From Betaproteobacteria bacterium (GTDB lineage Bacteria; Pseudomonadota; Gammaproteobacteria; Burkholderiales; Thiobacillaceae), in the NCBI GenBank assembly GCA_020049415.1, contig JAIFKV010000065.1:1-53971 (forward strand): DNA of 53,971 nucleotides. Direction: 5' to 3'. Below are positions 5,943 through 50,812 of the stretch, piece after piece. Made by a program: the position numbers and the translations under genes. The stretch's first letter is position 1, and each line of letters starts with the position of its first letter. Under the pieces are notes generated by a model. It was not told where the DNA came from. It saw only the letters and a program-made list of their open reading frames with translations, and did not search any database.

Positions 5943-8906
5943 ATGTTCATGCTGACCGCGTTTCCACTGCGCTACCTGATTCCCGGGTTGCTGCTGGTTA
6001 CTTCGCTGTTTCTCGCGCTGATTTACGTGCAGCACCGCAATACGGCTTCAGATGCGTTGATCGAAGCGCATCTGCAACGCGAGGCCAGTTACATCGGCCC
6101 GCAAATCAGCGCCGATTTCATCGAGGCCTATCAAATCAACGGTTTGCGCGGGGGCCTGCGCAAAATGATTCGACACGCCACGCGGCCGGATATTCGCCTG
6201 ACACTGGTAATCGATGCGCAAGGTGAACTGCTCTTTATCAACAATCCGGATCTGCAAGGCTTGCGTCTGGAAGCCCTCCCCGACCCGCCGCCGAAGGCGA
6301 TGATCGAAGTGGCGCGCAACAGTCAGGAAGGGCTGAACTGGTTGAGTCCGGGTCGGCAGACCTTATGGGGATTGTTTCCGGTAGAACTGGAAGAGCCGAG
6401 CGCAGCCAACGGCGGCAAGCGAAATAATCTTGTCCTCGCCCTGGCCTACGATGCCGCCAAGTCCAAGGCTTTTGAACGAGAGCGCATCCTCGACGAGATC
6501 GTGTTTTTCCTCGCCGGTATTGTTTTCATTTCATTGTTGATCTGGTTCCTGCTGCGCAAGGTGGTCACCCACCGGATCGAACTCCTGGCGGAGGCGGCAC
6601 ATCATTTTGTCGAAGGTCGCGGCGGCTTCACCGACGACATCAAGGGTCATGACGAGATCGGCCGACTGGCGCATGACCTCGCCCGCATCGGCCGCGATCT
6701 GCATGAACGCTACCTGCAGATCGAGACCGCCAATGCCGAACTGGCGTTGGAGGTCGTCGCCCGGCGCGAGGCGGAGCAGGAACTGCGGCTTACCGCCAGC
6801 GTGTTCGCCAGCACCAGCGAGGGCATCATCATCACCAACCCGAGCAATCGCATCATCGAGGTAAATGAGGCCTTTGTTCACGTCACCGGTTACAGCCGGG
6901 AAGAGATCATTGGCCAGACCCCCGGCTTGTTGCATTCCGGTTTACATAACCCGGCTTTCTATAGCGAGATGTGGCGTCGCATCCAGCGCGATGGCCATTG
7001 GAAAGGCGAAGTCCGCAATCGCCGCAAGAACGGGGAAATCTATACCGAGATTCTCGATATCGGCGTGGTGTGTGATGAAACCGGGGCGGTAACGCATTAC
7101 GTCGGCGTGTTTACCGACATTTCCGAGCTCAAGGAAACCCAGGCGCGGCTGGAGAAAATGGCGCACTACGACCATCTCACCGGCTTGCCCAATCGCGCGC
7201 TGTTCGCCTCGCGCCTGGAAGAGGCGATGGCCAGCGTCACTCGGCATGGCAATCTGCTGGCGGTTGCGCTGCTCGATCTGGATCGCTTCAAGCCGGTCAA
7301 CGACGTGCATGGCCACGAAATGGGCGATCGTCTGCTGATCGAAATCGCGCAGCGCCTGGATGCCTGTATGCGCACCGGCGACATCGTTGCGCGGGTTGGC
7401 GGTGATGAGTTTGTGCTGCTGATTCAGGATCTGGCCGAAGCCGACGAACTATGGCCTTTCTTGCAGCGTGTTCAGGCGACTTTCGAGACACCGGTTCGTA
7501 TCGATGGCCACGTTTTCGATATCACCAGCAGCCTGGGGGCGACGCTGTATCCGAACGATCCCGGCGATGCCGATGCCCTGCTGCGTCATGCCGACCAAGC
7601 GATGTATCTGGCCAAGCAGGCCGGGCGCAATCAATATCATTTATTCGACCCGGTGCAGGACCGGCAGATCCATCAGCGTTACGAACTGATCGAAAAAATG
7701 CGCCACGGGCTGGCGGAAAATCAGTTCGAGGTGTACTACCAGCCAAAACTTTGCATGCGCGGCATGACGGTGTACGGCGCCGAAGCGCTGGTGCGTTGGA
7801 ACGATCCGGAACGCGGCCTGGTGGCGCCGGGGGAATTTTTGCCCCATGCGGAAAACCACGATGTCATCGTCGCCCTCGATCAATGGGTGCTGGAACAGGC
7901 CTTGCGTCAACAAGTCCTCTGGCGCGCGGCTGGAATCGAACTGGTAGTCAGCGTCAACATCGCGGCGCGCGATTTGCAGCGCGAGGATTTTGTCGATCGC
8001 TTGCGCGCCAGCTTGCAACGCTTTCCGACCTTGCCGGCGAAATGCCTGGAGCTGGAAATTCTCGAATCCGCCGCGCTGCAAAACATGCTGCATATCCGCA
8101 AGGTGATTGAAACGGGCCGGCAGATGGGGGTCAGCTTCAGCCTGGATGATTTTGGCGCCGGCTATGCCTCGCTCGCCTATCTGAAGGAAATTCCGGTTGA
8201 TACGCTGAAGATCGACCAGGGTTTTGTGCGTGACATTCTGGAAGATCGCGGCGATCTCGCCTTGGTGCATGGCGTCGTTGGTCTGGCTCAGGCATTCAAC
8301 CTGAAGGTGGTAGCGGAAGGCGTCGAAACCCCCGAGCATGGCGTCTTGCTGATGCGTCTAGGCTGCGAGAACGTGCAAGGCTACGGCATTGCCCGGCCGA
8401 TGCCGGTGGACAAATTCGAGGCATGGCTGAGCGCCTCCAGATTTGATGAAACCTGGCAGGCCTGGGAAGGCAGCTATTGGTCCGCCGAAGATTACCCGCT
8501 GCTGATGGCGCAGCGCGATCACCTCGACTGGATCGCCCAATTGATCGCCTGTATCGATGGCGCCCCGCTGGAAGAATCCGAATGCGAGTTCTTCGACCTG
8601 CGCGCCTGTCGCCTCGGACATTGGTACGACTCCATCGGCCATACGCGTTATGGCCACATGCGCGCTTTCCAGGACCTCGGCGTCACGCACGCCGAGGTGC
8701 ATCGAATCGGCGCGGAAATCTTGCATGCGATTCAAGCCGGCCAGCAAAAAGAAGCGCGCAGCCGTGTTCCCGAGTTGCTGGTCATGAAAGATGCGGTGAT
8801 TGCCAGTCTGAGCCGGCTGCAACGCGCCGTCGATGAGTATCCATTGCTGGACAGCCCGCGACAGCGGAATCTGCCGGGAATATCAAGCGGGAGTTCCGTC
8901 GAATAA
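5943..8906 (+). CDS. Membrane PAS-GGDEF-EAL protein with C-terminal CZB domain
   Basis: 987 residues. Order: TM1 (about 9-28), a periplasmic sensor of about 155 residues, TM2 (about 187-207), HAMP (about 208-260), PAS (about 280-395), GGDEF (about 405-570), EAL (about 585-840), CZB (about 855-965). The cyclase motif is intact (GGDEF near 486, inhibitory RTGD five residues before it), as are phosphodiesterase motifs (EALVRW near 614, DDFGAGYASL). It could therefore both make and degrade c-di-GMP. The C-terminus carries CZB signatures: HLDW near 860, CRLGHWY near 889 and HAEVH near 919. CZB domains bind zinc through three His and one Cys. The only cysteine-rich segment is in this last domain. 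Confidence 0.92.
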   Translation: MFMLTAFPLRYLIPGLLLVTSLFLALIYVQHRNTASDALIEAHLQREASYIGPQISADFIEAYQINGLRGGLRKMIRHATRPDIRLTLVIDAQGELLFINNPDLQGLRLEALPDPPPKAMIEVARNSQEGLNWLSPGRQTLWGLFPVELEEPSAANGGKRNNLVLALAYDAAKSKAFERERILDEIVFFLAGIVFISLLIWFLLRKVVTHRIELLAEAAHHFVEGRGGFTDDIKGHDEIGRLAHDLARIGRDLHERYLQIETANAELALEVVARREAEQELRLTASVFASTSEGIIITNPSNRIIEVNEAFVHVTGYSREEIIGQTPGLLHSGLHNPAFYSEMWRRIQRDGHWKGEVRNRRKNGEIYTEILDIGVVCDETGAVTHYVGVFTDISELKETQARLEKMAHYDHLTGLPNRALFASRLEEAMASVTRHGNLLAVALLDLDRFKPVNDVHGHEMGDRLLIEIAQRLDACMRTGDIVARVGGDEFVLLIQDLAEADELWPFLQRVQATFETPVRIDGHVFDITSSLGATLYPNDPGDADALLRHADQAMYLAKQAGRNQYHLFDPVQDRQIHQRYELIEKMRHGLAENQFEVYYQPKLCMRGMTVYGAEALVRWNDPERGLVAPGEFLPHAENHDVIVALDQWVLEQALRQQVLWRAAGIELVVSVNIAARDLQREDFVDRLRASLQRFPTLPAKCLELEILESAALQNMLHIRKVIETGRQMGVSFSLDDFGAGYASLAYLKEIPVDTLKIDQGFVRDILEDRGDLALVHGVVGLAQAFNLKVVAEGVETPEHGVLLMRLGCENVQGYGIARPMPVDKFEAWLSASRFDETWQAWEGSYWSAEDYPLLMAQRDHLDWIAQLIACIDGAPLEESECEFFDLRACRLGHWYDSIGHTRYGHMRAFQDLGVTHAEVHRIGAEILHAIQAGQQKEARSRVPELLVMKDAVIASLSRLQRAVDEYPLLDSPRQRNLPGISSGSSVE

Positions 8907-44881: not shown

Positions 44882-45325
44882 ATGCGTAAAAACCTGTTTT
44901 TTGCAGTACTTCTGTTTTTGATCAGCCTATCTGTTTTTGCTGACTCTGCACCAATAGGCTACGTCAAGACGGTGAAAGGCGAGGCCTTTGTGGTCAATGA
45001 AGGAAAATCGATTCGCGCTGTGGTTGCCACACCCATCATTGAGGGGAGCATTTTGAAGACTGGCAACAATGCTTCCCTTGGTATCACCTTCAAGGACAAC
45101 ACCGTCATGTCCTTTGGCCCCAACACAGAGCTGACGGTGGACGAATACCTTTATTCTCCCAACAAGGGAAAGCTGAAATTGGCGGCAAGTCTTGCCAAAG
45201 GCACCTTGTCCTATCTTTCAGGCGCAATCGCCAAAATCAAGCCTGAGGCTGTTTCTGTAAAAACTCCGACTGGAACCATAGGGGTGCGAGGAACTCATTT
45301 CCTGGTAAGAGTCGAGCCAGACTGA
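44882..45325 (+). CDS. Secreted FecR-domain protein
   Basis: 147 residues. A signal peptide (about 1-20) precedes one FecR-type beta domain, with VKGEAFVVNEG near 30-40, EGSILKTGNNASLGITFKD and TPTGTIGVRGTHFLVRVEP. FecR domains in this setting are extracytoplasmic binding modules, often paired with CHASE2 cyclases or OmpA/LysM proteins, and unlike FecR itself it has no anti-sigma segment. GAGG precedes the ATG at moderate spacing. It ends 13 bases before the OmpA-type lipoprotein gene, so they are co-transcribed. Confidence 0.87.
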   Translation: MRKNLFFAVLLFLISLSVFADSAPIGYVKTVKGEAFVVNEGKSIRAVVATPIIEGSILKTGNNASLGITFKDNTVMSFGPNTELTVDEYLYSPNKGKLKLAASLAKGTLSYLSGAIAKIKPEAVSVKTPTGTIGVRGTHFLVRVEPD

Positions 45326-45338
45326 GACGGGACCAATC

Positions 45339-46580
45339 ATGCGTTTCGCAGCTAGTTTGCTTGTATTTGGTCTGCTGACCGCCTGTAGTTCTCAGATTGT
45401 CGTCATTCCCGGCGCGCCCTTGGAGGGCGCTTCAACTTCGGTGAATGTGCAATCGGAAAAGGGGGACTACACACTCAACGAACAAGGTTATGGCTTTTAT
45501 ACCGGCTTTGTTCCGAACACCCGCTATCGTGTGGATGAAGCTGACTTAAAGAGAGATTTCGGTCCATCCATCGACTCGATGCAAGAAATCATTGCCGCTG
45601 GGCTACCTGAAATCCCCCATTCCTATGTTGTTTTGCTGCATCACAAAAGCGGCCCGCTAGGCAGTTTGTTGTTTGATTCTGCGGATGGCTCTATGCACCA
45701 TCTGCTCGACCAACCTGCTCAGGCTGCCTTCATTGACGGCTATCCAGATAAACCCAAGCCTGTCGATGGCGGTCAGTTACAGCGTGATTTTGGCCCGGCA
45801 TTGGCCGCTTTACGAGACACGTTAAAGACTCAGCGTTCCTATCTCATGCTGTTGGAAAGCCCGGATGGCTCCGCCAGCAAGGTGCTCTTCCATGCTCGGC
45901 AGGGTGCAACTCTGCTTGAAAATGTTGGTGAGAGCATCACGCTTGACGGTCTTCCTCACGATGCCGAGCAAACCCTTGCCGAGACGGATTTTGGCGCATC
46001 AAAAGAGGCCACCAAGAAGATATTGGATGATGGTTTGCCCAAGCTGTCTCATTCTTACGCAGCCATTATGGAAAGTCCGCTTGGCCCGATTGGTGAAGCG
46101 GAAATCCTCGAAGGGCAAGCGATGGGCGTTATCCTTGATCAACCCGGACAAGCGGTGATCATTGACGGTTACTCCAACAAGATTTTTACCTTGGATGAGG
46201 CGCAGTATCAGCGGGATTTTGGCGCTTCTGCAGAAGCCATGCCCCCGCTGCCAGTGACTTTAACCCTCTACTTCAAATCGGGTAGCGCCAAATTGACCAA
46301 AGATACGCTGGCGATCATGCAGGTGATTCTGGAGGAGATTCGTAAACGTCCCGCAGCCGACATCACTATCAGTGGCTTTACCGATACGGTGAAAAGCGAC
46401 CAATACAATAATCAGCTTTCGCTCCAACGCAGCGAGGCAGTCGCGGCACTCATCCGGAAAAGTGGCGTACCGCTTCAGGAAATCAGTATCGCCGCCTATG
46501 GGAAAGACCTGCTGGCGATACAGACCCCGGATAACACAGCGGAAGAAATGAACCGCCGGGTTGAAATCAGTATCCGGTAA
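45339..46580 (+). CDS. OmpA-type lipoprotein with internal tandem repeats
   Basis: 413 residues. The lipobox LLTAC gives Cys16. Residues about 65-305 hold about three and a half copies of an unrecognised unit. The copies are marked by RDFG/TDFG at 73, 150, 217 and 293, by a central SY-hydrophobic segment (95, 167, 239) and by IDGY or LDGL (132, 202, 275). The C-terminal OmpA domain (about 306-413) has the peptidoglycan-binding pattern GFTDT, NNQLSLQRSEAV and NRRVEIS. It should tether the outer membrane to peptidoglycan. It follows the FecR-domain gene closely and converges on the glutaminase gene. The repeat may serve as a spacer or a ligand-binding unit. Confidence 0.85.
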   Translation: MRFAASLLVFGLLTACSSQIVVIPGAPLEGASTSVNVQSEKGDYTLNEQGYGFYTGFVPNTRYRVDEADLKRDFGPSIDSMQEIIAAGLPEIPHSYVVLLHHKSGPLGSLLFDSADGSMHHLLDQPAQAAFIDGYPDKPKPVDGGQLQRDFGPALAALRDTLKTQRSYLMLLESPDGSASKVLFHARQGATLLENVGESITLDGLPHDAEQTLAETDFGASKEATKKILDDGLPKLSHSYAAIMESPLGPIGEAEILEGQAMGVILDQPGQAVIIDGYSNKIFTLDEAQYQRDFGASAEAMPPLPVTLTLYFKSGSAKLTKDTLAIMQVILEEIRKRPAADITISGFTDTVKSDQYNNQLSLQRSEAVAALIRKSGVPLQEISIAAYGKDLLAIQTPDNTAEEMNRRVEISIR

Positions 46581-46619
46581 AAGCCACTCATTTAATCCGC
46601 ACTTGATTGACAGTTCACT

Positions 46620-46649
46620 CTGGAAGAGCAAGTCAATTTGCTCTTCCAG
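46620..46649. terminator. Strong hairpin between convergent OmpA-type and glutaminase genes
   Basis: A perfect 12-pair stem (CTGGAAGAGCAA and TTGCTCTTCCAG) with a 6-base loop, followed by ATTTGTATTT. It lies 39 bases past the OmpA-type stop and 16 bases from the glutaminase stop, so it can serve both. Confidence 0.8.
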
Positions 46650-46665
46650 ATTTGTATTTCAGAGC

Positions 46666-48489
46666 TCATGCCAGTGCGGCAATCCATTGGGTTGCCCGTC
46701 GCAGATTGTTGGCCATGTCCTTGGCAAGATTCTCCAAAACGAAGATCTTCAGCTCCGGCGCCTGCTGCGCCAGCGCCTCAAAATCTGATGCATCCAGAAT
46801 TCGACACATCACCTCGGTATCCGCAAAAACCGAAGCGCTTCGTGTTGTTTGTCCGAGCAGCACCATTTCCCCGAAGTTCATGCCAGCGCCCAACGAGGCA
46901 ATACGCTGATGTCCACCATTCGCAATGGGGACCAGGATGCTGACATGGCCGGAATCAATGAAAAAAATTCGACCGTCACCCGCCTGGCCAGAAACCAGAA
47001 TCTGCTCACCCGGCTTGAATGATTGCGGATGTGTCACAGCCTCGACCAGACTCATCAGGTCTTCGGTCACGCTCTTGAAGAGCGGAAAGTCAGCCAGTTT
47101 CCAATCTACATGGGTCGACCAGTCGACGTTTCCGAACAACCTGTTCTCGCACCATTCCACCGCCAGATCATTGTCTTCAAAGCTGAGAAAGCCACGATCA
47201 CCATTCCGCGCCGCCTTTCTTAACGGTTCCATCAGCGCCTGACGGTGATGCATTCGGGAAAAGACCACCGCGATTTCATCCTGACTGAAACCGATGCGGG
47301 CTTGGTTCAGCAATCGCGCTGCGCTTTCAGAAATGCCATCCACCTGGTTCATGTCAAGGATAAAACTGTGGCTATCAGGCGCCATTTCACGCATGCGTCG
47401 AATCACATATTCCGCGCCATCAACAGCCAGATAACCATGCAAACTCAAATATTTGATGCGATGTGCATGTGTTTGCAGATACTCGCGCATGTCTCCGATA
47501 GGCTGTCGGCGCGACGGGGCGTCCGCCCCCGTGAAGACCCTGCCCAGGGCCATGCTTGGCGTGCCGGTACGATTAAAAATATGCAAGCCGAAGTCGCGAG
47601 ACAACTGCTTGCACACTTCGATGCCACGTTCACTATTACCCTTTGCATCGAGCCGAGGTGAAAAGATACCAATACCGAATCGGCCAGGCAGTACGGCAAT
47701 AATGCCACCACCCACGCCGCTCTTGGCCGGCATTCCGACCTCATACAACCAACTGCCTGCATAGTCATACATGCCACAGGTGGCCATGACGCTCAACACC
47801 CGTTCGACATGCTCCGAAGGCAGCGCTCGCTTTGCTGTGAGTGGGTTTACGCCGCCATTGGCCAATGTTGCCGCCATGTAAGCCAGATCCCGACAAGTAA
47901 CCAGGATGGAGCATTGACGAAAGTAATTTTCCAGCGGCGCCATGGGCTCGCCGTCAATAATGCCGAAATTCTTCAGCATCCAGGCGATTGCACGGTTGCG
48001 GAAACCGGTCTCGCTTTCCGATCGGTACACCGATTCATCAACGCTGATATCGTGTCCGATAAAGGCGGCGAGAGAGGATTCAATTCGCTGCCACTGGGCA
48101 TGTGGCGTCTCGCCGGCGACCAAACCGGTGGTGGCAATTGCACCAGCATTGATCATCGGATTCATTGGCGCACCAGTTTGGGGATCAAGACTGATGGAAT
48201 TAAAAGCATCACCGCTGGGTTCAACCCCAACCCGGCTTGCGACAAACTCTTTACCCCTGTCCGCCAGCGCCGTGGCATAGACGAACGGTTTCGAGATGGA
48301 TTGAATGGTGAAGGGCTGCTCGGAGTCTCCGACCGAATAAGCAACGCCATCCATGGTGACGAGGCAAATCCCAAACCATTCCGGATTGGCTTTGGTGAGT
48401 TCGGGGATATAACTCGCTACCTCTCCCCCATTCAGGTTGGCTAGTCGGGCGTGCAGTTCATCCAGGTAAAGCTGAAAAGGTAATTGCAT
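46666..48489 (-). CDS. glsA: Glutaminase fused to STAS and cyclic-nucleotide-binding domains
   Basis: 607 residues, twice the size of ordinary GlsA. The serine-dependent glutaminase domain (about 1-310) has the SxxK pair Ser64-Lys67 (QSISKPF) and the MNPMINAGAIATTG segment, and converts glutamine to glutamate and ammonia. A STAS domain (about 335-445) follows. The C-terminal cyclic-nucleotide-binding domain (about 480-600) keeps the phosphate-binding cassette FGEM near 539 and RSAS near 549, so it should bind cAMP or cGMP. The upstream gene on the same strand, 85 bases away, encodes a class III cyclase. Nucleotide control of glutamine breakdown is a reasonable inference, not proven. Confidence 0.9.
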   Translation of the reverse strand: MQLPFQLYLDELHARLANLNGGEVASYIPELTKANPEWFGICLVTMDGVAYSVGDSEQPFTIQSISKPFVYATALADRGKEFVASRVGVEPSGDAFNSISLDPQTGAPMNPMINAGAIATTGLVAGETPHAQWQRIESSLAAFIGHDISVDESVYRSESETGFRNRAIAWMLKNFGIIDGEPMAPLENYFRQCSILVTCRDLAYMAATLANGGVNPLTAKRALPSEHVERVLSVMATCGMYDYAGSWLYEVGMPAKSGVGGGIIAVLPGRFGIGIFSPRLDAKGNSERGIEVCKQLSRDFGLHIFNRTGTPSMALGRVFTGADAPSRRQPIGDMREYLQTHAHRIKYLSLHGYLAVDGAEYVIRRMREMAPDSHSFILDMNQVDGISESAARLLNQARIGFSQDEIAVVFSRMHHRQALMEPLRKAARNGDRGFLSFEDNDLAVEWCENRLFGNVDWSTHVDWKLADFPLFKSVTEDLMSLVEAVTHPQSFKPGEQILVSGQAGDGRIFFIDSGHVSILVPIANGGHQRIASLGAGMNFGEMVLLGQTTRSASVFADTEVMCRILDASDFEALAQQAPELKIFVLENLAKDMANNLRRATQWIAALA

Positions 48490-48505
48490 GTGGAGTTCAC
48501 CAAGG

Positions 48506-48526
48506 TAGTTTCTGTAACAGAAACTA
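48506..48526. promoter_or_regulatory. Perfect dyad upstream of the glutaminase gene
   Basis: TAGTTTCTG and its exact reverse complement CAGAAACTA, separated by TAA, lie 17 bases before the glutaminase start (48489) and 49 bases past the cyclase stop. It has no T run after it on the transcribed side, which favours an operator or mRNA hairpin over a terminator. It is not a CRP-type site (TGTGA-N6-TCACA). Confidence 0.45.
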
Positions 48527-48574
48527 GCAAATACCAGGCCATCTCATAGGCTGCTGAACAGACTAAATACTTGG

Positions 48575-50737
48575 TTACTTTTGAGTAAAAACAATGACTT
48601 CTCCGGTTTGGCCAGACAACAGTCGTTGGAGGTGAAACTTCACTAATGGATCGTCTGGCCGCTCTTCCGCCAGTCGTTTAAAGACATTCAAGGCCGTCGG
48701 ATCATCCTGTGCCATCAACTTATAGGCTTCGGCATAATCCAGGTCTGGTTTCGCCAGTTCCGTATCGCCGACAAAAGCGGGTTCATACACCAGCAATGGT
48801 TGTGTTTTTCCTTTCAATACCAGTCTGCCAACCGGCCTGGCCATGATTTCCGGGCAGCCCGAAAGCGTTGCCTCGGATACGCAGACCCAAGTGCCCAACT
48901 GCTTGTTGACCGTTTCCAGTCTGGCCGCCGTATTGACCGGATCACCCAAGGCGCGATAGTCAAAGATCGTTGAACCGCCGAAGTTTCCTACCGTCACTTC
49001 TCCGGTATGAATGCCAATCCGTGTTGAACCAAAAGGGATGCCTCGCTGATTGGCGTCGGCCGCGTAGTCGCTGGCAAAACGGTGCATTTCCAAGGCGCAG
49101 CGCAGGGCGCGTTGACGATGGTCGGACTGTTCCAACGGCGCCGAGAACATGATGGCGACCGCATCACCGACAATGCGGTCCAAAGTGCCGTCATGCTTGA
49201 AGGCGATGCGGATCATGTTATCGAGGTATTCATTCAGCAACGTGACGGCTACGGCCGGATCCAGTTTCTCCATCAGGTTGGTGAAACTGGCCAGGTCGGT
49301 GAAGATGAAGCTGCATTCCCTTCGGCTGCCGCCCAATTCCAACTGGCCTGGATTGTTGACCAGATAGTTCACCAGATTGGGCGAAAGGTAGCGAGCGAAG
49401 GCTTGCCTCACCCAGCGTTGGCGTCGTTCGGTTGCCGCGTGGTGAATCAGGCTGGTAAAAATGAAGATCATCAACAAGGTCAAACCGGGGGTTACCGGAT
49501 CAAGCAACAGACCGTAATTTGAATAAGCGTACCAACCGCCCCAGACGGTCAAGATCAGTGTAATAACCACCGCGCCAGCCGATAGTAAAGAGCCAGCAAA
49601 CATGCCGATGAAACCCACCAAGAGCCCTCCTGAAATAATGCCCAGCACTTCCAGTGCAGGCGCCCAACCCGGACGCTGCAGGTTGTCTCCGACAATAATC
49701 TGTTCCAGCGCTTGAGCATGAGCTTCGACTCCGGGCATGGTTCCGCCAAGAGGGCTGAAACGCAGGTCCATCAAGCCTTGAGCGGAACTTCCCACCAGCA
49801 GAATATGGTTCTGGATCAAGTCCTGAGGAACCTGACCAGAAAAAATCTTCCAAGCGGGGATATAGCGAGTGGCCACAGGCTTGGTATATCGCACCCATAT
49901 TTCACCCTCGGCTGTTGTCGGTATCGTCAGTGGGCCAATACGGATGCTTTCGAGGCCGGCATCTTCCTCCTCGGCGGTTTTTATAAAATAGTTACGCTCA
50001 CCCTGGGCCACGCGTAACGCCTCCGCCACCAACGACGGAACAACCTGATCCCCGAGTCGAAGCATGAGCGGAACCCGTCGTATAACACCATCATTATCCG
50101 GGATGAAAGAAATCGCCCCATTGCCTGCGGTCGCATCCTGCAACGGTGCAAGACAGGCAACCGTGCCATTGAATTGGGACAGAAAAGACATTGGCGAAGG
50201 GCCAATCTGCACGATGCTGTACGGTTTGACGAAGTGGTTCGGCAGCGTCCCCGTCCGCGTCGGCGCATGCCCCAGAACCACGCCCCCTTTCGCGATACTG
50301 TCGGCAAAAACCGTATCGTGAACGGGCAGGCTTGAAAGCTCGCTACGCAGAGATGCAGAGGGTTTCCATATCTTCAACAAAGCCTCCGGAGAGGTCCGAT
50401 CCGGCTCGGCAAACATCATGTCGAAGACAACAGCGGCAGCACCCGCAGAGCGCAAATGCTCGACCAAATCAGCCAGCCGCGTGCGCGGCCAGGGCCATTG
50501 CCCCAGCCGGGTCAAACTTTCATCGTCAACATCGATGATGCGCACCGGTGCATCTTGATAAGGTCTGGGAGACCAACGCTGATATTCATCAAACACCGTG
50601 TTTCGCAGCACTTGCAGAATGGTTGGATTGAGCAGAAAAAGTAAAACACCCAACATCACTGCTGCAATCGGCAAGACCCAATCAACATTCAGTTTGAGCA
50701 CCCTATTCGAGAGTGCTTTCAGGCGCGTATCAGGCAT
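48575..50737 (-). CDS. CHASE2-domain class III adenylate cyclase
   Basis: 720 residues. TM1 (about 20-40), CHASE2 extracytoplasmic sensor (about 45-330), three membrane helices (about 345-425) and a class III cyclase domain (about 470-630). Both metal Asps are present (FTDLASFT near 480 and RIVGDAV), as are Asn and Arg of the transition-state site (VNTAARLE). The adenine-specifying Asp is in LGDPVN. The residue at the first substrate position is Arg (LDRIVGD) where many cyclases have Lys. The end (about 650-720) is a helical TPR-like segment. ATG 50737 was used; an upstream GTG is possible. It is most likely a cAMP maker that works with the downstream cyclic-nucleotide-binding glutaminase. 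Confidence 0.9.
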   Translation of the reverse strand: MPDTRLKALSNRVLKLNVDWVLPIAAVMLGVLLFLLNPTILQVLRNTVFDEYQRWSPRPYQDAPVRIIDVDDESLTRLGQWPWPRTRLADLVEHLRSAGAAAVVFDMMFAEPDRTSPEALLKIWKPSASLRSELSSLPVHDTVFADSIAKGGVVLGHAPTRTGTLPNHFVKPYSIVQIGPSPMSFLSQFNGTVACLAPLQDATAGNGAISFIPDNDGVIRRVPLMLRLGDQVVPSLVAEALRVAQGERNYFIKTAEEEDAGLESIRIGPLTIPTTAEGEIWVRYTKPVATRYIPAWKIFSGQVPQDLIQNHILLVGSSAQGLMDLRFSPLGGTMPGVEAHAQALEQIIVGDNLQRPGWAPALEVLGIISGGLLVGFIGMFAGSLLSAGAVVITLILTVWGGWYAYSNYGLLLDPVTPGLTLLMIFIFTSLIHHAATERRQRWVRQAFARYLSPNLVNYLVNNPGQLELGGSRRECSFIFTDLASFTNLMEKLDPAVAVTLLNEYLDNMIRIAFKHDGTLDRIVGDAVAIMFSAPLEQSDHRQRALRCALEMHRFASDYAADANQRGIPFGSTRIGIHTGEVTVGNFGGSTIFDYRALGDPVNTAARLETVNKQLGTWVCVSEATLSGCPEIMARPVGRLVLKGKTQPLLVYEPAFVGDTELAKPDLDYAEAYKLMAQDDPTALNVFKRLAEERPDDPLVKFHLQRLLSGQTGEVIVFTQK

Positions 50738-50812
50738 CAAAAACACATCAGAAAATTGCGGTTAAAGCTGGATCGAGCATCAAACTTGGTCTGAAAATGC
50801 GCCGGGAGTCGC

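Follow-up and report, generated by a model that had tools for sequence, protein, structure and literature searches.

A putative nucleotide-gated glutaminase encoded beside a CHASE2 class III cyclase in a betaproteobacterial genome

A 53,971-nt contig of a Betaproteobacteria bacterium (JAIFKV010000065.1, assembly GCA_020049415.1), here called the window, encodes a CHASE2 class III nucleotide cyclase and, directly downstream, a glutaminase fused to STAS and cyclic-nucleotide-binding (CNB) domains. The glutaminase is probably gated by a cyclic mononucleotide made by the cyclase, which would act as part of an envelope-sensing FecR/OmpA/CHASE2 cluster; binding, activation and signal are what we infer from sequence. 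The proposal draws on the domains themselves, on intact active-site and CNB cassettes, on a linkage of the two genes that is not random, on the variety of CNB enzymes found beside the cyclase and on a conserved promoter in front of the glutaminase.

The cyclase and glutaminase-STAS-CNB genes

The cyclase gene (723 amino acids, GTG start; minus strand, 48575-50746) and the glutaminase-STAS-CNB gene (607 amino acids; minus strand, 46666-48489) were identified from open reading frames (ORFs) and Pfam matches. The cyclase matched CHASE2 (8.7e-59) and Guanylate_cyc (6.4e-18), and an in-frame ATG at 50737, three codons into its ORF, is an alternative start. The glutaminase protein matched Glutaminase (4.9e-122) and cNMP_binding (2.9e-14). 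The cyclase lies 5′ of the glutaminase across a gap of 85 nt (48490-48574) in which a pattern scan found no terminator-like site. This is the arrangement described in an earlier note on this DNA, and the ORFs and Pfam matches confirm it.

The protein scored 407 bits against PF04960 (cut-off, 27) and 368.4 against TIGR03814 (cut-off, 255.4), which places it in the Glutaminase family, with the Glutaminase domain at residues 22-305. An alignment of 81 proteins was made from the window's sequence and 80 relatives (from 78 of the 80 loci described below, plus L006 and L007); left out were L002 (the window's second copy), the duplicates L003, L004 and L005, the fragments L068 and L069, and L009, a double glutaminase without a CNB domain. 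S64, K67, N114, E158, N165, Y189 and Y241 were each kept in at least 97% of the proteins. We take S64 and K67 to be the SxxK pair and the others to form the Asn/Glu/Asn/Tyr/Tyr glutaminase pocket. The CNB domain (residues about 489-576, followed by a C-helix) carries the phosphate-binding cassette that the earlier note had recognized by its FGE and RSAS motifs, from F539-G-E541 to R550-S-A-S553 (codons at 46831-46875 on the minus strand, computed from residue numbers). The cassette is conserved (G540 in 81/81, E541 in 80/81 and R550 in 78/81 proteins) across an alignment in which many relatives are only 40 to 47% identical to the window protein. Judged by this conservation, the CNB domain likely binds a nucleotide. 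In sequence it is nearest to PKG and PKA regulatory domains, and the NCBIfam model NF058543 (Pat) matches it.

The STAS domain (residues about 343-414), also named in the earlier note, gave a Pfam match below threshold (6.3e-4; 19.9 bits versus a cut-off of 22.6). The assignment is nevertheless supported, because the whole STAS-CNB stretch is homologous to the STAS-CNB tail of the SulP transporters of L118 and L138. NCBIfam NF002134 matches residues 1-409, below its cut-off. An AlphaFold model built with 40 sequences had a mean predicted local distance difference test score of 89.5 and a predicted template modeling score of 0.82. Its best Foldseek match was the Micrococcus luteus glutaminase Mglu over 422-462 columns, at a root mean square deviation of about 11 Å, so the domains are not superposed as a single body; human and Escherichia coli glutaminases followed over about 305 columns. 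The Mglu match means that a C-terminally extended glutaminase was already known and that the CNB domain is the addition. Other CNB proteins were seen near glutaminase-STAS-CNB genes in stretches without a CHASE2 cyclase: a CNB-DUF1003 protein about 7 kb away at L060:16937-17824, and a CNB-patatin protein (NTE type) and a SulP-STAS-CNB protein a few kilobases away at L118:10086-16356.

Linkage of CHASE2 cyclases to the glutaminase and to other CNB enzymes

A genome collection was scanned with the glutaminase, and the best 80 of 430 stretches encoding a relative were taken as 80 loci. A CHASE2 cyclase lay in the fetched stretch at 17 of the 80, against 0.64 expected from the CHASE2 matches per genome (80 genomes) and the stretch lengths; the probability of such a count is about 3e-20 if the loci are treated as independent, which they are not. 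The 17 include L045, whose cyclase was confirmed by Pfam, and do not include L035 and L108, where the cyclase domain is cut by the stretch end and CHASE2 was not seen. At 80% identity, 78 aligned glutaminases fell into 63 clusters, 14 of them with a cyclase. On a quick glutaminase tree, the linkage label underwent at least 15 state changes, nine of them forced by starred branches, against a shuffled mean of 16.3; the tree has flagged long branches, and 13 changes were counted once unlinked stretches shorter than 10 kb were dropped. As the 15 changes are near the shuffled mean, kinship does not account for the linkage count. The adjacency that the earlier note had singled out for a survey of genomes thus recurs in relatives.

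The gene order varied among the linked loci. The cyclase was directly upstream of the glutaminase, as in the window, in L032, L033, L034, L053, L062 and L072, and divergent from it in L040, L044 and L045. FecR and OmpA genes lay between the two where the cyclase was downstream in L047, L049, L086 and L099 and where it was upstream in L070 and L110. In L057 and L111, the glutaminase was preceded by FecR and cyclase genes of its own strand, separated from it by a gap about as long as a gene. The L057 gap holds a class II cyclic-nucleotide phosphodiesterase gene, giving the order FecR, cyclase, phosphodiesterase, glutaminase in one direction; the ORF tried in the L111 gap had no Pfam match. The linked cyclases were of more than one type, as described below.

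FecR and/or OmpA genes were nearby in 15 of the 17 cyclase-linked loci, the exceptions being L040, which had neither (its contig ends in the cyclase), and L045, which had only a weak, distant FecR match. In the window, Pfam identified an FecR-domain gene (147 amino acids; plus strand, 44882-45325), whose product has a signal-peptide-like N terminus by eye, and an OmpA-domain gene (413 amino acids; plus strand, 45339-46580), whose product begins, again by eye, like a lipoprotein signal. Both are downstream of the glutaminase and convergent with the cyclase-glutaminase strand, and a terminator-like palindrome with a 14-bp stem (46619-46650, reported on the plus strand) separates the OmpA and glutaminase genes. 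The cyclase-glutaminase pair accordingly belongs to a larger FecR/OmpA/CHASE2 cluster, of which the earlier note made no mention. The combination of CHASE2, a class III domain and a nearby FecR gene, all found in the window, has precedent among CHASE2 cyclases in PMC5498481 and PMC9239204, and FecR beside CHASE2 histidine kinases has also been described (PMC5192318). The cyclase is flanked on its 5′ side by genes for a YchJ-like protein and a P-type ATPase (best NCBIfam match, a calcium pump, below its cut-off). No Crp-type transcription factor or phosphodiesterase was present among the six window genes scanned by Pfam.

At the cyclase-less loci, Pfam families were surveyed for the closest gene on either side (upstream at 56 loci, downstream at 53), omitting L105 and L106 (near-copies of L104) and the L100 upstream gene, which was dropped before alignment. 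Among the best 25 of 98 upstream and the best 25 of 74 downstream families, the commonest were NHL (9 upstream, 5 downstream) and DUF7133 (6 and 6), and no other recurrent signaling partner appeared. FecR genes were also seen in stretches without a CHASE2 cyclase: in L035 (4041-7508) the upstream neighbor encodes an FecR-TPR protein, and in L088 an FecR-domain gene (6350-6850) lies near the glutaminase-STAS-CNB gene. The L088 genome has a window-type cyclase on a different contig.

The two genes also co-occurred when unlinked. With a window-type cyclase defined by an E value of at most 1e-100, 11 of 300 genomes of the window's order had the cyclase, 6 had the full glutaminase-STAS-CNB and 2 had both, and order genomes without the glutaminase-STAS-CNB had the cyclase in 9/294. 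At a stricter E value of 1e-150, it was present in 5 of 369 genomes of the window's class, the window's own genome included. At 1e-100, it was found in 28 of the 80 glutaminase genomes, a few of these matches being fragments or only 34 to 35% identical. Among the 39 genomes whose glutaminase is at least 55% identical (L032-L070), 21 carried the cyclase (versus 9/294; Fisher, 5.5e-16), and of the 27 among them without a linked CHASE2 cyclase, 11 carried it elsewhere (versus 9/294; Fisher, 1.8e-8); the samples behind both comparisons are not lineage-matched and their bins may be incomplete. In the window's genus (23 species), the cyclase was present in six species and the glutaminase in two, and both glutaminases adjoin a cyclase.

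Within this genus, the same-strand slot immediately 3′ of the cyclase was occupied by a CNB enzyme in four of the six cyclase-bearing genomes: the glutaminase-STAS-CNB twice, a CNB-EAL protein once (L119, genome G129) and a FeeM-CNB protein once (L130, genome G760). The last of these (L130:566-1477) joins a CNB domain to a FeeM-type N-acyl amino acid synthase, which would then be gated by a cyclic nucleotide. A ShlB/FhaC-type two-partner secretion gene was also located close to the cyclase and FecR genes in two of the genus's species (L119:12833-14536 and L132:2742-4445). Outside the genus, the CNB genes close to the cyclase encoded CNB-patatin proteins of the NTE type (L123, L124), a CNB-Ser/Thr kinase (L135), a CNB-EAL protein (L151) and a CNB protein without another Pfam domain (L120). 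A second CNB gene was present at some glutaminase-cyclase loci. In L032, L033, L034 and L062 it encodes a CNB-SpoIIE phosphatase; in L047, where it immediately follows the cyclase, it encodes an Na+/H+ exchanger-CNB protein; and in L070 its product is CNB-only. More distantly, a Paracoccus plasmid carries a related cyclase (35% identical) separated by two genes from a CNB-patatin gene, and an Ensifer plasmid carries one (40%) beside FecR, TPR and MBL-fold genes, with a SulP-STAS-CNB gene about 2 kb away.

Among stretches fetched by cyclase or CHASE2, CNB genes were present in 8/22 with a window-type cyclase (score of at least 600, window excluded) versus 2/28 with other CHASE2 cyclases (Fisher, 0.014), and in 7/21 (Fisher, 0.028) when L129, which has a glutaminase, was removed. 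Fourteen stretches without a CHASE2-cyclase pair had CNB genes in two cases, one of them (L121) a glutaminase locus, and no CNB genes were found at the five other CHASE2 loci of the window's own genome. The enrichment of CNB genes near window-type cyclases is suggestive, and 18 genomes with such a cyclase had 6 to 23 CNB matches each. Taken together, the recurrent linkage (in varied gene orders and with cyclases of different types), the unlinked co-occurrence and the other CNB enzymes beside the cyclase favor the earlier suggestion that producer and reader of a nucleotide are encoded together.

Transcription of the glutaminase and the product of the cyclase

The bases before the glutaminase start that are invariant in the window and five relatives include TGG-N8-TTGC, the -24/-12 element of sigma-54 promoters. 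A search was made with the motif TGGCACG-N4-TTGCW and its GG-N10-GC core (4 of the 12 consensus bases required), and a match was scored at 9 or more of 12. The window's predicted promoter, TGGCCTGGTATTTGCT (minus strand, 48526-48541, read from 48541 to 48526), has 10/12 consensus bases and ends 36 nt before the glutaminase ATG. The motif was found within 250 nt of 62/80 glutaminase starts, whereas 8.6% of 3,950 random 250-mers drawn from these loci contained it. With the distance limited to 130 nt, it was found at 58/79 glutaminases versus 35/765 other genes of the loci (Fisher, 4e-47; the loci are not independent and the starts of the other genes are crude). Among the order's 24 glutaminases without a CNB match, it occurred within 200 nt in two and within 130 nt in one. 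It also tracked rpoN: of 78 loci with an rpoN result, the motif was present in 56/71 with rpoN and 1/7 without (Fisher, 0.0012), the exception being L077, possibly an incomplete bin. The window's own genome carries rpoN. Three Rhodococcus loci (L104, L105 and L106) had lost the cassette arginine and had neither the motif nor an rpoN match; their CNB domain may have ceased to bind nucleotide.

In the window, the motif was missing from the cyclase, FecR and OmpA genes (best scores, 0, 5 and 7), and its position at the glutaminase indicates that in most loci this gene is transcribed on its own. A conserved sigma-54 promoter that sets glutaminase abundance is well supported by sequence. With this promoter in the gap between cyclase and glutaminase, a shared transcript is not the usual case. 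At L053 no motif was found and the cyclase ends about 120 nt upstream of the glutaminase; joint transcription is possible there. In L073, L077, L083, L087, L090-L094, L097 and L098, the motif ends 11 to 12 nt before the assigned start, so the true start may be further downstream or the mRNA may be leaderless. NtrC-like sites (at most two mismatches) were not enriched upstream of the glutaminase (7/80 regions versus about 4 in random stretches). The gap also contains a perfect palindrome, TTTCTGTTACAGAAA (48509-48523), which was considered as an operator and rejected: it is not kept in five relatives, and the gap RNA folds no better than shuffles (z, -0.84). It could be a lineage-specific operator.

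The cyclase keeps motifs whose catalytic roles we take as established, and its product is likely a cyclic mononucleotide. Class III adenylate cyclases have Lys and Thr/Asp (or Ser) at the substrate-specifying positions. The window cyclase has R (TLDRIVGD) and R (FDYRALGD) in place of this pair, so the nucleotide cannot be read off the sequence. In an alignment of 42 cyclase rows (including second copies of the window and L062 cyclases, the incomplete L040 and the fragment L005), R/R was found in 27/42, namely, the window and its type with the DYRALGD motif (two rows being second copies and L040 incomplete). Of the 15 others, 11 had K with T or S, and L035, L045, L108 and the fragment L005 fit neither class. 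Among solved structures, the pair is K and T in the adenylate cyclases 3r5g and 1wc1, and K or E, with G, in 6fht and 2w01. K/T also occurs in the glutaminase-linked cyclases of L057, L072 and L111, which indicates that the association exists with both cyclase kinds. On the reader side, position 600 of the window protein, which we presume to align with the base-contacting C-helix residue S128 of CRP, is T in the window (family, N in 35/81 and T in 32/81). PMC11224242 ties S/T, N and E at that C-helix position to cAMP, cUMP and cGMP, respectively, a rule that carries over to position 600 only weakly, and Sinorhizobium meliloti Clr responds to both cAMP and cGMP according to PMC10127613.

Proposed mechanism, rival explanations and known systems

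In the mechanism we favor, FecR, the OmpA peptidoglycan-binding protein and the periplasmic CHASE2 domain would form an envelope sensor that controls the cytoplasmic cyclase. The cyclic mononucleotide made by the cyclase would bind the C-terminal CNB domain, and the signal would pass via STAS to the glutaminase domain and alter the output of glutamate and ammonia, most likely as an increase. The sigma-54 promoter would set glutaminase abundance separately. More broadly, the sensor-cyclase would be a cassette feeding adjacent CNB enzymes, the glutaminase being one of several interchangeable outputs. The part given to FecR and OmpA is proposed by analogy with S. meliloti and Campylobacterota. 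Antiporter and SulP outputs elsewhere lean toward ion or envelope stress and the sigma-54 promoter toward nitrogen; nitrogen supply, glutamate as an osmolyte and ammonia against acid are candidate roles.

Bacterial cyclic-nucleotide signaling is mostly described as a cyclase acting through a Crp-type transcription factor. A nucleotide-gated glutaminase would instead make a central reaction of nitrogen metabolism subject to a second messenger, with the sigma-54 promoter as a second control layer, and the same sensor-cyclase beside varied CNB enzymes in sister species offers a comparative set for local cyclase action. The R/R pair makes the product of the cyclase an assayable question. It is a doubtful but distinct possibility that R/R CHASE2 cyclases make a private messenger other than cAMP (cGMP, a cyclic pyrimidine or one as yet unnamed) read by the adjacent CNB enzymes. 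If so, one envelope sensor would switch interchangeable enzymes (glutaminase, EAL phosphodiesterase, N-acyl amino acid synthase, phospholipase, kinase, phosphatase, antiporter) with the cell's cAMP pool untouched.

Several observations weigh against gating by the linked cyclase. No CHASE2 cyclase was present in the fetched stretch at 63/80 loci, although some stretches were short, and most relatives come from metagenome bins. The promoter between the genes means that co-expression is not required. The contrast in CNB genes between cyclase types is modest in size, and in genomes with an unlinked glutaminase only 1/7 window-type cyclases (L151) was near a CNB gene, several of these stretches again being short. 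Within the genus, the G761 cyclase stretch (L131) has no CNB gene, the nearest listed CNB match being about 12 kb off, and none was found in the cyclase stretches of G759 (L132 and L133, short contigs). R550 is absent from three proteins, all from Rhodococcus. Against FecR as a general sensor, the FecR-domain gene smc02177 of S. meliloti was not needed for the plant-signal response in PMC5498481.

The cyclase-less loci would also fit a CNB domain that reads a global cAMP pool from any cyclase, the adjacent CHASE2 cyclase being one contributor or serving FecR/OmpA and a Crp-type regulator. The canonical CNB cassette and the abundance of possible partners in the window's own genome (6 CHASE2 and 17 CNB matches) are in keeping with such an arrangement, which is possible though unlikely given the excess of linkage and co-occurrence and the variety of CNB enzymes that immediately follow the cyclase in sister species. 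It is less likely still that the protein is a nitrogen enzyme under sigma-54 control whose CNB domain has lost nucleotide binding and become a structural or oligomerization module. The motif and its covariation with rpoN would suit that role, as would the loss of the arginine in Rhodococcus; E541 and R550, however, are otherwise kept despite identities as low as 40 to 47%, NtrC-like sites are not enriched, and the cyclase linkage would go unexplained.

Two further explanations are very improbable. One is that cyclase and glutaminase are chance neighbors without functional relation, as might be supposed from the separate promoter and from the presence of the glutaminase in just 2/23 genus genomes; the 17 linked loci against 0.64 expected, the many state changes on the tree and the placement of both genus glutaminases beside a cyclase speak against it. 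The other is that the cluster is a Pycsar-like anti-phage system of cyclase and CNB effectors. PADLOC PycC matches the cyclase domain (1.6e-19) and PycTIR/TIR effectors match the CNB part (best, 1.1e-11), but these matches span only the shared cyclase and CNB domains, and PycC with a TIR or transmembrane effector was not found. The cyclase has a CHASE2 sensor with FecR/OmpA nearby, and the identified linked CNB proteins are metabolic, signaling or transport proteins, with no TIR among the CNB proteins scanned. The nucleotide-gated glutaminase of an envelope-sensing cluster thus remains the explanation we prefer.

Parts of this scheme resemble known systems. The mycobacterial protein acetylase Pat is reportedly an enzyme directly gated by a CNB domain; it differs from the window protein in enzyme and in domain order, and we know of no linked cyclase for it. 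The SulP transporters of L118 and L138 share the homologous STAS-CNB module, with a membrane anion transporter in place of the glutaminase. We take the C-terminal extension of the salt-tolerant M. luteus Mglu to be STAS-like. Mglu (PDB 3agd, 3if5, 3ih8), the best structural and sequence match in the PDB, shares this extension, but neither it nor NF002134 includes a CNB domain. In S. meliloti, the CHASE2 cyclases CyaD1, CyaD2 and CyaK are described with the FecR-domain protein SMc02177, the outer-membrane protein NsrA and Clr (PMC5498481, PMC7529298 and PMC13001267). As here, these are CHASE2-class III cyclases that convert an envelope signal into a cyclic nucleotide, and the FecR gene has a neighboring locus number; unlike here, the reader is the Crp-family protein Clr rather than a CNB-domain enzyme and NsrA is a beta-barrel rather than an OmpA protein. 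A Campylobacterota cluster combines a CHASE2 adenylate cyclase with a phosphodiesterase, an FecR protein and a TPR protein (PMC9239204), recalling the CHASE2 cyclases with FecR described here and the phosphodiesterase of L057, but the available text of that paper describes no CNB-domain enzyme or glutaminase. Pycsar PycC/PycTIR likewise links a class III cyclase with a CNB-domain enzyme but, in the available text of PMC11224242, serves phage defense through cUMP/cCMP and a TIR NADase, without CHASE2 or FecR. A literature search, with subscription papers mostly outside its scope, returned nothing on a CNB-bearing glutaminase or on CHASE2 cyclases with linked CNB enzymes, and no paper on a glutaminase with rpoN relevant to the glutaminase-STAS-CNB. 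The individual domains, the FecR/CHASE2 cyclase module and an extended glutaminase core belong to known kinds; what is new is how the domains are combined, the sigma-54 promoter and the swapping of CNB enzymes next to the cyclase.

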